From the NCBI GenBank assembly GCA_004195045.1, contig SGBC01000003.1, positions 62,001 to 126,000 of the forward strand: DNA of 64,000 bases, in the 5' to 3' direction. This DNA is from Candidatus Acididesulfobacter guangdongensis. GTDB lineage: Bacteria; SZUA-79; Acidulodesulfobacterales; Acidulodesulfobacteraceae. The position numbers and the translations under genes are program-made. Every line of letters starts with the position of its first letter. Position 1 is the stretch's first letter. Positions 8,025-13,222 of this stretch are shown piece by piece. The notes beneath the pieces are model-generated. The model saw only the letters and a program-made list of their open reading frames with translations, was not told the DNA's origin and searched no databases.

Positions 8025-8258
8025 TTATTTCTTTTTAGCTGTTACTGTCTTTTTAGCTACCATAGCTGTCTTTTTAGCTGCTGTCTTTTTAGCTGTTTTC
8101 TTAACCACTTTTTTAGGTGCCATAGGTGCCTTTTTTACTACTTTAGGCGCAGCAGGCGCTTTTGGTGCGGGAGCAGCCGCTTTTTTGGCGCATCCGGAAA
8201 ATGCTAAAGTAGATAAAACCAAAAACATTCCTACGATTAACACTGTAAGCTTCTTCAA
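8025..8258 (-). CDS. Small Lys/Ala-rich lipoprotein
   Basis: This is a 77-residue predicted lipoprotein of unknown function. It begins with two lysines and a hydrophobic signal segment (residues 4-19), then a lipobox ending at Cys23 (FSGC). The mature part is almost only Lys, Ala, Pro, Val and Thr, with repeated KKVVKKTAKKTAAKK-like blocks that recall histone-H1-type or AlgP-type basic tails. The coding DNA is itself repetitive (repeats of a CTTTTTAGCTG-like unit on the + strand, 8030-8100). The start is a TTG at 8258, chosen because it sits just after a near-perfect Shine-Dalgarno sequence. It has its own promoter and terminator, suggesting strong single-gene expression. A role in binding anionic envelope polymers is only a guess. 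Confidence 0.8.
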   Translation of the reverse strand: MKKLTVLIVGMFLVLSTLAFSGCAKKAAAPAPKAPAAPKVVKKAPMAPKKVVKKTAKKTAAKKTAMVAKKTVTAKKK

Positions 8259-9438: not shown

Positions 9439-10077
9439 TTGATAGAATTTATGCATGTTTATAAATCTTATGATAAAAATTATATTTTAAGGGATTTATC
9501 CTTCAATATATATAAAGGAGAATTTGTCTTTATAACCGGACCGTCAGGCGCAGGCAAAACTACCACTATGAAGATGGTAATTGCTATGGAAAAACCGACG
9601 CACGGTCAAATTAATGTTTTTAATGAGGATATTTCCGCCATTCATCCTAAACAAATTCCTTTTTTAAGGAGAAAAATCGGATTTGTTTTTCAGGATTTCA
9701 AACTTCTCATTAACAGAACCGTTTTTCAGAATGTGGCGCTTGGACTTGAAATTTCCGGAGTTTCAGGTTCTATTATTGCTAAAAACGTTACAGAAATTCT
9801 AAAAGCCGTTGAATTATACCAGAAGAAAGACGAATATCCGCTGAGTCTTTCAGGCGGCGAGCAGCAAAGGGTTGCTATAGCAAGAGCCCTTGTGCAGAAT
9901 CCGTCTGTGCTTATTGCGGATGAGCCTACCGGCAACCTTGACTTCGAGACGGCATCAATTATAATAGATATATTAAAATCGTTCAATAATAAAGGAACGA
10001 CAATGATAATAGCAACGCATGATAAAACTTTAATTGAATTAGGAAGGGCAAGGGTAATTGATATCACAAAAAATTAA
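9439..10077 (+). CDS. ftsE: Cell division ATP-binding protein FtsE
   Basis: FtsE is the ATPase of the FtsEX complex, which works at the division septum to control peptidoglycan hydrolases. The 212-residue ABC protein has Walker [10 protein letters not shown] near residues 34-43, a Q-loop in VFQDFKLL, the signature [15 protein letters not shown], Walker [13 protein letters not shown] and an H-loop ATHD. The start is TTG at 9439, supported by AAGAGG upstream and by the typical FtsE N-terminus ([11 protein letters not shown]). The ATG at 9451 would truncate the first beta strand. The 3' end overlaps ftsX by 20 bases, indicating translational coupling. Confidence 0.96.
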
Positions 10078-10987
10078 TTATTTAAATAATTATATCAAAA
10101 TAGCGTTTTTGAATATTAAATCAAATATCGCAGGGAATATCTTTGCCTTAAGCATAATGTCATTTTCTTTTTTTATTATGCTTTTTTTTATGCTCAGCTA
10201 TATTAATATTTATAATTATATGCTTTCATTCGAAAAAAATAATACCATGATAATTTTTTTAAAAAATTTAGAAAATACGCACAGTAATGGAGCAAATCTC
10301 ACTAATAGAATAACGGCAGCTAATATTATAAATAAAATAAAAAAATTTAAAGGCGTGAAAAAAGTTAAGTACTATTCCAATAAATTATCATACAAATTTA
10401 TGCTCAAACACACGCCTAATATAAAAACTATCTTAGCTAAGATTAAACCGTCGTATTTTCCCCGTATTATTAAAATATATTTTAAACCGAATTATATAAG
10501 CAAAATATATCTGTCTAATATATATCTGCGTTTAAAATCTATGAGGCATATAAAATTTGTTTATTACAGCAAACTTATGGAAGATAAAATAAATCAATTT
10601 GTTTTTTTCACTAAAATGATCGGATTTATTGTTTTGCTGTTTTTATTTATCTCGTCCGTTTTTGTTTCTTACAGCGCCATTAAACTTATTATATTAAGAA
10701 AACAAAACGATATTGAAATATTAAAACTGATAGGCGCTACGAATAATTATATAAAAATTCCGATGTATATAGAAAGCGCTATGGGTTCGGTGATAGCGTT
10801 TATTTTATCGCTGATTTTGCTATCCGCTATATTTAATATCTTTATATATTATAAATTTAATAAATTTCTTTCTTTCTTTAAAATTAATATTATATTTTTG
10901 AACGGCTTTGATGTTCTTATTATTTTTTTTATTGCCTTACTGTCCGGTTTTTTGGGAACTTATTTTTCATCAAGAAAATTTTTCTAA
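10058..10987 (+). CDS. ftsX: Cell division protein FtsX
   Basis: FtsX is the membrane subunit of FtsEX. It transmits FtsE ATP hydrolysis to a periplasmic hydrolase or its activator. The 309-residue protein has the expected four membrane segments (about residues 20-45, 180-205, 225-255 and 280-305), a large extracytoplasmic loop after the first segment, and the conserved cytoplasmic [19 protein letters not shown] motif. The start is a TTG inside ftsE, preceded by a purine-rich AGGAAGGGCAAGGG. The extracytoplasmic loop is unusually Lys/Ile/Tyr-rich, in line with the genome's base composition. Next comes the coiled-coil protein expected to be its periplasmic partner. Confidence 0.93.
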
Positions 10988-10998
10988 CTTATTAAAAA

Positions 10999-11733
10999 AT
11001 GCAATTAAAAAGACTCAAAAGAATTTTATTTATAGCCGTATTTTTTATACTGTTTACAGGGACGGCAAAATCTGCGGCGTTCGCATCTCCGTTTATTAAG
11101 CATAGGCATATATTTTATGAAAGTTCATCATCGATAATTAATAAATTAAAATTATATAAATTATCGTTAAATAGACTTTACAAAGATTTAGAAAAAAAGA
11201 AAAAAGAATCAAATAAATTAAATCATAAAATTAAATATACGGATATAATATTAAAAAAATTGAAAAAAAAAATTAAAAATTCAGGTTTTATCGTTACGCG
11301 GCTTTTGAAAGATATTTTTGTAATAAACGAAGAAAGAGATGCCGATATAATAAACTTATCCGATAAAAATAGCAATTATGTCATTTCTAATTATATTCTA
11401 AAAAATTTGCTTAACCATGAAGAATACAGATTGAAGAAATTGATAAACCGCGATAAAAAATTTGCTAAAATTAATAAAGAAATAGTTTTTGAAAGAAAGA
11501 AGCTTAAAAAAGAAATAGACGGTCTATCCGAATCAAAATTAAAATTAAAAAAAATTATTGCGGATTCGCAAAATTATATAAATAATATTAATAGAATGAA
11601 AACTGAAGAATCTCGCACAAATAATAAAAACAGTAGATTTTTGAGAAAGAAAGTTATAAAATTGATTCATAAAATCAAAAATAAGATAAAAAGCAAAAGC
11701 CATCATGATATAAAATTTATTGTTATAAAATAA
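10999..11733 (+). CDS. EnvC-like exported coiled-coil protein lacking a LytM/M23 domain
   Basis: A 244-residue exported protein with a signal peptide or anchor (residues 1-30, FIAVFFILFTGTAKSAAFA) and a very Lys-rich coiled coil. The helical pattern (LNRLYKDLEKKKKESNKLNHK, then a short regulatory-looking middle part, then a second long helix near residues 145-200) resembles the coiled-coil and regulatory part of EnvC-type murein hydrolase activators. Its place between ftsX and ctpA is where EnvC-like M23 proteins usually stand. No M23/LytM domain follows: the ORF ends after a basic tail and only about 124 bases remain before ctpA. It may signal to an amidase or peptidase encoded elsewhere. 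The assignment rests on context and helix pattern, not on a diagnostic motif. Confidence 0.65.
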   Translation: MQLKRLKRILFIAVFFILFTGTAKSAAFASPFIKHRHIFYESSSSIINKLKLYKLSLNRLYKDLEKKKKESNKLNHKIKYTDIILKKLKKKIKNSGFIVTRLLKDIFVINEERDADIINLSDKNSNYVISNYILKNLLNHEEYRLKKLINRDKKFAKINKEIVFERKKLKKEIDGLSESKLKLKKIIADSQNYINNINRMKTEESRTNNKNSRFLRKKVIKLIHKIKNKIKSKSHHDIKFIVIK

Positions 11734-11857
11734 ATTTATAGGGATAATGTTATAAAATAAATTCATAGAGATAAGAATAAAAATAAGAATCGTAAAATAA
11801 AAATAAAATTATAAATAAAAGTTGTAATTATCAGTATTGGTATATGGAGGAATTTAA

Positions 11858-13222
11858 TTGAAAAATAAAAATATTTTGCTGTTTTTCTTTCTTGCTGCGA
11901 TATTGCCGTTAATATTTCCTGTAAGTTCTGATGCGGCAGGCAATGTTAATACTATTAAAACAAAAACATATATAAAAAATGCCGCTTCAGCAAAAACACC
12001 GCAGCATTATCTGAAAAAAGCAGATATATCTGCAGATGCTTTAAAGAATATCAGACTGTTTTCTAAAGTCTATACCTTAATAGAAAAGAATTATGTTAAA
12101 AATGAAAATTCTAAAAAATTAATTTACGGTGCAATAGAAGGCATGGTGGCAACATTAGACCCGCACACCTATTTTTTAACTAAAAGCGAATTCAGACAAA
12201 TGAAAGAGGAAACTACCGGAGAATTTGTCGGAATAGGAATAAAAATTTCATCAAGAAATAATCATATAGTAATTATTTCTCCTATCGACGGTACGCCGGC
12301 TTACAAAGCAGGTATCAAGTCAGGGGATATTATAGAAAAAATTAACGGAATATCGACTTTCAAAATGGGTATTATGAAAGCGGTTAAACTGCTTCAGGGT
12401 AAGCCCGGCACTAAAGTCAACCTTTTAATCATGAGAAAAGGTTTTAAAAAACCTAAAACATTTATAATAGAAAGGAAACGTATTTTGTTAAAAAGCGTAA
12501 AATATATGGTTATGCCTGACCATATAGGTTATGTGAGGATTTCAAGTTTTCAGGCTCACACTAACAGTCAGCTGTTAAATGCGCTTAGCATATTAAATAA
12601 AAAAGAACACGGACTTAAAGGCTTAATAATTGATTTAAGGAATAACCCCGGAGGTTTATTAAATCAAGCTGTCAAAGTCTGCAGCGATTTTATTAGTAAA
12701 GGCGTAATAGTTTACACTAAAGGCAGAATTAAATCTCAGGATGAAACATATTATGCTCTGCAGCAGCATTTACAGCCGGATTATCCTATAGCGGTGCTTG
12801 TTAATGCTGGAACTGCAAGCGCTGCGGAGATTACATCCGGAAGTCTTCAGGCTCATAAAAGGGCTGTCGTCATAGGAACAAAAACATTCGGAAAGGGTTC
12901 CGTACAAACAGTTTATCACTTGCCTGAGGGTACCGGCATGGGTTTGACTACGGCTTTTTATTTTCTTCCGAATCATGTTTCTATTCAAAATACCGGAGTT
13001 ACTCCTAACTTTATCGTTCATTCATCTAAAGATTTTATATTTGTAAAACCTTTGCCAAAATTAAGGGAAATTGATTTAAGGCACCATTTTAAAAATCCGG
13101 AAAGTCTGAAAATCAAAAAGGAAATAAAGCAGAATGCATTGCCGGTGTATTTTAAAAAAGACAATCAGCTAAAGTTTGCTTATGAACTTTTAAAAAGCTG
13201 GAATACTTTAAAGAATTATTAA
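11858..13222 (+). CDS. ctpA: Carboxy-terminal processing protease (S41 family)
   Basis: A periplasmic serine protease that trims C-termini of exported proteins and can control cell-wall hydrolases. An N-terminal signal segment (residues 5-27) is followed by an S41 N-terminal helical region (LFSKVYTLIEKNYV), a PDZ domain (about residues 118-200) and the protease core. The catalytic dyad is visible as Ser321 in GTASAAEITSG and Lys346 in TFGKGSVQT. The 454-residue length is normal. The start is a TTG with a good GGAGG 8 bases upstream. The last gene of the ftsE-ftsX-coiled-coil-ctpA cluster, it is a candidate regulator of the division hydrolases. Confidence 0.94.
   Translation: MKNKNILLFFFLAAILPLIFPVSSDAAGNVNTIKTKTYIKNAASAKTPQHYLKKADISADALKNIRLFSKVYTLIEKNYVKNENSKKLIYGAIEGMVATLDPHTYFLTKSEFRQMKEETTGEFVGIGIKISSRNNHIVIISPIDGTPAYKAGIKSGDIIEKINGISTFKMGIMKAVKLLQGKPGTKVNLLIMRKGFKKPKTFIIERKRILLKSVKYMVMPDHIGYVRISSFQAHTNSQLLNALSILNKKEHGLKGLIIDLRNNPGGLLNQAVKVCSDFISKGVIVYTKGRIKSQDETYYALQQHLQPDYPIAVLVNAGTASAAEITSGSLQAHKRAVVIGTKTFGKGSVQTVYHLPEGTGMGLTTAFYFLPNHVSIQNTGVTPNFIVHSSKDFIFVKPLPKLREIDLRHHFKNPESLKIKKEIKQNALPVYFKKDNQLKFAYELLKSWNTLKNY

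Follow-up and report, generated by a model that had tools for sequence, protein, structure and literature searches.

Genes and features at the ftsEX-ctpA locus

The window, a stretch of 64,000 nucleotides from Candidatus Acididesulfobacter guangdongensis (genome of 2.2 Mb, 5 contigs, 99% complete), carries a cell-division cluster in which ftsE and ftsX are followed by a gene that we call x (product, X) and then by ctpA. The features, in window coordinates, are as follows.

8025..8258, minus strand: small Lys/Ala/Pro-rich putative lipoprotein with a lipobox-like LAFSGC (read from the sequence); homologues lie beside x in most loci
9439..10077, plus strand: ftsE, cell-division ABC ATPase, 212 aa (NCBIfam TIGR02673 FtsE, an equivalog model, passed with 277.2 bits against a cut-off of 264.85)
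10058..10987, plus strand: ftsX, permease-like division protein, 309 aa (Pfam FtsX, E = 4e-9)
10379..10462, plus strand: X-lobe segment of FtsX, residues ~108-135, including the conserved Phe114
10999..11733, plus strand: x, encoding a probably exported, LytM-less, EnvC-type coiled-coil protein of 244 aa (open reading frame, orthologues upstream of ctpA, dN/dS)
10999..11088, plus strand: probable signal peptide of X (basic n-region, hydrophobic core, AxA-like end)
11104..11691, plus strand: predicted antiparallel two-helix coiled-coil hairpin of X, residues 36-112 and 121-231 (AlphaFold2, hhalign)
11620..11730, plus strand: conserved C-terminal motif of X, NKxxRxLxxKVIKLI ... DIKFIxxK/R, in place of LytM (KVIKL invariance, dN/dS)
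11734..11857, no strand: AT-rich spacer of 124 bases, too short for a separate LytM gene
11858..13222, plus strand: ctpA, S41 C-terminal processing protease with PDZ domain, 454 aa (Pfam S41, E = 1e-53; NCBIfam prc, 327 bits, above cut-off)

Eleven bases separate the ftsX stop codon from the start of x. The Pfam match, the best NCBIfam hits, and the solved homologues identify FtsX as an ABC3-type permease with an extracytoplasmic porter domain and an X-lobe; its profile matches five solved FtsX sequences (E = 7e-10 to 7e-6), and its score against TIGR00439 falls below that model's equivalog cut-off. An extracytoplasmic β-α-β domain is predicted, with two helices (residues 108-127) at the X-lobe position, in an AlphaFold model of low confidence. 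The protein is 87% identical to FtsX of Candidatus Acididesulfobacter diazotrophicus, whose lineage was described from acid mine drainage (PMC6776010). X itself gave no match of substance among Pfam, NCBIfam, or PDB sequences, with coiled-coil noise at best, and an Rfam search over the whole window returned no match. The putative lipoprotein gene is a constant neighbor, and in other genera it lies directly upstream of x.

The phylum lacks LytM/M23 proteins

In outgroup genomes, the gene that comes after ftsE-ftsX encodes a coiled coil plus a LytM domain, and the six such proteins lying beside recognized ftsE and ftsX genes are 345-409 aa long, compared with 220-258 aa for intact copies of X. 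The initial annotation proposed that x occupies the EnvC position without encoding a LytM domain and that no LytM fragment could fit before ctpA. Both proposals are confirmed: the 244-residue open reading frame contains no C-terminal LytM/M23-fold domain of the kind that characterizes the EnvC family, and the spacer to ctpA is the short one listed above. Moreover, a Peptidase_M23 search of the entire genome, covering all six frames and reading past stop codons, gave no match.

We extended this search to 61 genomes, comprising the 30 of the family to which the window belongs and 31 outgroup genomes; in the genome collection used, the family is equivalent to the phylum, as a phylum-level search gave the identical 30 genomes. 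At E ≤ 0.001, M23 is present in none of the 30 phylum genomes vs all 31 outgroup genomes. Relaxing the search to E = 10 yielded only weak matches in the phylum, none of them over the cut-off; these sub-threshold matches (E = 0.003 to 10) fall mostly within long open reading frames of ~1390-1410 and 630-660 aa, which we take, by size and spacing only, to be RNA polymerase large subunits and biotin-carrier-type proteins. Archaeal controls likewise give weak M23 matches. We also considered that a frameshift or split gene might conceal a LytM domain, and this is ruled out because the six-frame, stop-tolerant search of the genome and the phylum finds no M23. The LytM-lacking X is thus neither a frameshift nor a sequencing artifact, and homologues do not carry the domain either: no X-bearing genome of the phylum has LytM, on X or elsewhere.

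X is probably related to the EnvC coiled coil

A comparison of the X alignment with seven outgroup EnvC proteins (the six above and that of locus L162, where ftsX was recognized beside the gene) using hhalign gave a score of 31.6, with 106 columns in register across the hairpin. Controls scored lower, with a maximum of 21.7 for 30 heptad-block shuffles of X, and 18.8 and 19.9 for reversed sequences; the hhalign probability ranges from 20 to 82% depending on the setting, and coiled coils are apt to mislead such estimates. In a full-length alignment with outgroup EnvC, X ends just before the LytM domain. The AlphaFold2 model has two long helices (36-112 and 121-231) at a pLDDT of 59, and the low confidence of this and the FtsX model is explained by the input, which contained only near relatives. 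The earlier suggestion of an EnvC-like, two-helix layout is compatible with a low-confidence model and with weak profile similarity that exceeds the shuffled controls.

One alternative is that X is an unrelated coiled-coil protein that sits at the EnvC position by chance. The similarity to EnvC is indeed weak: the X profile matches solved EnvC structures in the PDB at E = 0.25 or worse, Foldseek with the X model gives no significant match (Vibrio cholerae EnvC ranks tenth, E = 0.085), and matches of both kinds are mostly to generic coiled coils. Nonetheless, the in-register hhalign similarity above that of the shuffles, a gene order shared with outgroup ftsE-ftsX-envC-ctpA, an sddA/yibQ gene downstream of ctpA in several genera (PMC12440217), and changes shared with the FtsX X-lobe (see below) argue against chance, which we regard as improbable. 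Homology of X with the EnvC coiled coil is not proven, and we consider it probable. X would then work like EnvC up to the point at which the LytM domain begins.

X is conserved and under purifying selection

Profile searches identified X in 24 of the 30 phylum genomes, counting one genome in which the gene is split over two contigs (G005) and one in which it is frameshifted (G023). In the latter, the apparent frameshift interrupts x (L099:6638-7237, 199 aa) and reflects either mutation or assembly error. A further genome, G014, has a broken remnant of x and lies outside the 24.

The best-conserved part of X across the phylum is its C-terminus, NKxxRxLxxKVIKLI...F, in which KVIKL is invariant in all 21 orthologues that reach that far, across five genera. 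Comparisons of the window's genome with three congeners give dN/dS values of 0.19-0.29 for X and 0.09-0.17 for the last 40 codons; the G002/G006 pair gives 0.44, although these two are very close and their differences are too few to judge. X is under purifying selection, and the invariance of KVIKL together with the low dN/dS of the last 40 codons identifies the C-terminus as a selected element. What the initial annotation described as a Lys-rich tail is thus the most conserved stretch of the protein.

These values bear on the idea that X is what remains of an EnvC in decay, its function lost together with LytM. Its variable length, its Lys/Asn/Ile-biased composition, its loss from three genomes, and the frameshift in a fourth could be read in that way. 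Against this stand the dN/dS values, the KVIKL motif shared across five genera, and the coincidence of x losses with loss of ftsEX or alteration of the X-lobe, and we consider decay very improbable.

X and FtsX change together

Escherichia coli FtsX grips the EnvC coil through its X-lobe, with Phe152 and Phe158 being prominent (PMC7668044). Phe114 of the window's FtsX lies within ~2 alignment columns of the E. coli residue that we read as Phe152, using an inferred numbering, and all X-bearing genomes whose FtsX could be read keep it. Two genomes of different genera, G008 and G025, keep FtsX and have no intact X, and both have Ser at position 114. In G008, which is 99% complete, there is no x between the lipoprotein gene and ctpA, and the X-lobe of its FtsX (L169:1596-2714) has a low-complexity insertion of ~70 residues; in G025, there is a short open reading frame with the C-terminal motif only and no match to the X profile. 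In G014 (0.9 Mb, 85% complete), where the x remnant is found, there is no FtsX match and no ftsEX between thiE and cobQ.

X and FtsX thus change together, in two or three events that are few but point the same way. The loss of Phe114 from both X-less genomes that keep FtsX is an indirect indication, at the level of sequence, that X may bind the FtsX X-lobe.

Gene order and the association with ctpA

Across the phylum, x orthologues immediately precede ctpA. Two genera (g1 and g5) have thiE-ftsE-ftsX-x-ctpA on a single strand, and in three others (g2, g4, and g6), a block of ftsX-ftsE-thiE plus the small lipoprotein gene is inverted, such that ftsEX is divergent from lipoprotein-x-ctpA. The gene neighborhood is therefore not uniform among genera, and the majority of them encode x and ftsEX on different strands and hence not in one operon. 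The order in the outgroups suggests that the g1/g5 arrangement is ancestral.

A deacetylase gene of the PF04748 family lies downstream of ctpA in g2, g4, g5, and part of g6 (for example, L098:6551-7804). E. coli SddA/YibQ, a member of this family whose gene accompanies envC, modulates amidases of the septum (PMC12440217), and the presence of a PF04748 gene near x-ctpA supports the EnvC identity of the locus, as do the adjacent ftsX in g1 and g5 and the ctpA directly downstream. The family is found in 15 of the 30 genomes and is absent from the window's genome and genus, and we rejected sddA as an obligate partner.

The initial annotation also raised the possibility that FtsEX controls the adjacent S41 protease. 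The synteny search that it called for shows a gene for a 220-258-aa protein lacking LytM ahead of ctpA across the phylum, but the linkage is not peculiar to x: ctpA also lies 3' of LytM-bearing EnvC genes in outgroups (L156, L160, L161, L162, and L167), and so its position next to x is nothing special and lends the protease no specific support as an effector. A related idea is that X serves CtpA as a scaffold or substrate, with its conserved C-terminus being cut by the protease or guiding it. Proteases of the S41 family attack C-termini, and almost every locus has x immediately before ctpA, including those with ftsEX on the opposite strand. However, Prc-type PDZ domains prefer nonpolar C-terminal residues and X ends in Lys/Arg, the linkage in outgroups implies that it predates the loss of LytM, and ctpA persists in genomes that have lost x. 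We think a role of this kind quite unlikely.

The phylum amidase lacks the LytM-binding insert and a zinc-site histidine

The window's genome encodes a single Amidase_3 protein, and one is present in 29 of the 30 phylum genomes, including all 24 that bear X. The gene (L031:922-2034, contig C1) is preceded by a HisB-like open reading frame and followed by a HisH-like one, by our reading of the sequence.

The phylum amidase and the helix-less CwlV align over their whole length, but the alignment with E. coli AmiA is in two pieces. The distance from the TYY to the VLIE motif is 47-48 residues in all 28 full-length phylum amidases, compared with 86-98 in 17 of 19 outgroup amidases, a comparison in which six outgroup loci were unparsed and uncounted and the outgroups are distant, related only at the rank of taxonomic domain. 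In AmiA, this stretch is the regulatory domain, with a blocking helix and an interaction helix that docks in the groove of the EnvC LytM domain (PMC10268282). The phylum amidase thus lacks a regulatory insert of ~45 residues, and the blocking helix that an EnvC-family protein would relieve is not there. Because two defining features of the family, LytM and an amidase with a blocking helix, are lacking, X is not a full member of it. The two absences are coherent with each other because the EnvC-AmiB structure shows LytM bound to the interaction helix of the amidase (PMC10268282): the phylum has neither LytM nor the amidase element that LytM grips.

The active site is also altered. At the position of the second zinc-ligand histidine (AmiA His133), all 28 phylum amidases have Tyr and all 19 from the outgroups have His; the other two zinc ligands (the first His and the Glu) and the catalytic Glu are kept in all 28. 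The enzyme therefore departs at the second His from the AmiA/B/C type, which has a His-Glu-His zinc site with a catalytic Glu, and it may be dead.

Other peptidoglycan hydrolases

If FtsEX acts on a separate hydrolase, as the initial annotation also suggested, it is not of the M23 family, since the genome-wide search shows that no M23 protein exists, and it would belong to another family. X carries no CHAP or NlpC/P60 catalytic domain in Pfam or NCBIfam searches, and so does not belong with PcsB, CwlO, or RipC.

NlpC/P60 proteins are present in 25 of the 30 phylum genomes; in the window's genome, the protein contains four LysM domains and lacks a coiled coil. Its gene (L168:582-1865, contig C4) contains a long segment with a pair of LysM domains that is repeated nearly identically. 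X could be an FtsEX adaptor whose receiver is this LysM-NlpC/P60 endopeptidase rather than the amidase: an enzyme that has no coil of its own could use an external one, and in CwlO and RipC it is an NlpC/P60 domain that FtsX drives (PMC7668044, PMC11627006). The family was not found, however, in four X-bearing genomes (G003, G005, G020, and G028, each only 65-90% complete), whereas the amidase is present in every X-bearing genome, and we rate the endopeptidase an unlikely receiver. Neither the amidase nor NlpC/P60 was found in G014, where incompleteness (85% complete) could explain both. Peptidoglycan transpeptidases are present in all 30 phylum genomes, and three transpeptidase matches remain in the reduced genome of G014 (L116).

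A probable LytM-less adaptor for FtsEX

We conclude that X is likely the FtsX-binding coiled-coil part of an EnvC-type adaptor that has lost LytM and has a short, conserved peptide at its end. The initial proposal of an EnvC-type coil without LytM is supported, as this protein is real and conserved, so FtsEX cannot act through LytM in this organism. The role of X as a LytM-less adaptor is fairly well supported; its target we can only infer. ATP-driven movement of FtsX would be transmitted to the X hairpin, as happens with EnvC, and the signal would be passed on by the conserved peptide at the C-terminus. The most likely receiver would be the remodeled amidase, reached by a LytM-independent contact that might, for example, promote metal binding, an assignment that we offer tentatively as somewhat short of probable; the LysM-NlpC/P60 endopeptidase would be the second choice. 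Alternatively, the amidase may be constitutive or dead, and X may only position other enzymes.

Several known systems provide context. EnvC of E. coli, Pseudomonas aeruginosa, and V. cholerae, which acts with FtsEX and AmiA/AmiB, shares with X the exported antiparallel hairpin (predicted in X), the gene position after ftsX and before ctpA (in several outgroups), and weak in-register profile similarity over the hairpin; it differs in that X lacks LytM, has a short conserved C-terminal motif instead, and accompanies an amidase without the LytM-binding insert. PcsB (CHAP) and CwlO/RipC (NlpC/P60) also have coiled coils driven by the FtsX extracytoplasmic loop, but carry their own hydrolase domains, whereas X has none. 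The model of a non-LytM activator comes from Clostridioides difficile, where GerS promotes zinc binding by CwlD (PMC8496864), an amidase of the helix-less CwlV/CwlD type like that of the phylum. GerS, however, is a spore-formation lipoprotein rather than an FtsEX-driven coil, and CwlD keeps both His ligands.

The absence of LytM is not in itself unprecedented, because Chlamydiae also lack LytM proteins. Chlamydia trachomatis has no LytM-domain protein and an AmiA without the blocking-helix glutamate E167, and how that amidase is regulated is unsettled (PMC13104611). Chlamydial AmiA keeps its zinc-binding histidines, though, and pathogenic Chlamydia lack a full sacculus, whereas the Acididesulfobacter phylum is an FtsEX lineage that keeps a coiled-coil adaptor and whose amidase has Tyr at a zinc ligand. 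We found no description in the open-license literature of FtsEX with a bare coil and a selected C-terminus.

In its broadest form, our proposal is that septal control in this phylum has moved entirely away from LytM: FtsEX would move a bare coil, and the C-terminal peptide of that coil would control an amidase with a His-Glu-Tyr metal site. The change could be an adaptation to low periplasmic pH, at which His would be a poor zinc ligand; we view the proposal as speculative and rather doubtful. If true, it would add a further class of output to FtsEX and a novel active site to the amidases. Judging from gene content, cells of the phylum must rely on some other control when they cleave the wall at division. 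In FtsEX systems of the cited literature, output runs through a domain, catalytic or LytM, that terminates the coiled coil. The phylum is without that domain, the M23 fold as a whole, and the corresponding insert of the amidase, yet it has retained FtsEX and the coil under selection, and it is thus a natural deletion experiment for how the force of FtsEX reaches a hydrolase. The lineage makes testable both the role of the coil alone and whether an amidase is active when Tyr replaces one of its zinc-binding histidines.
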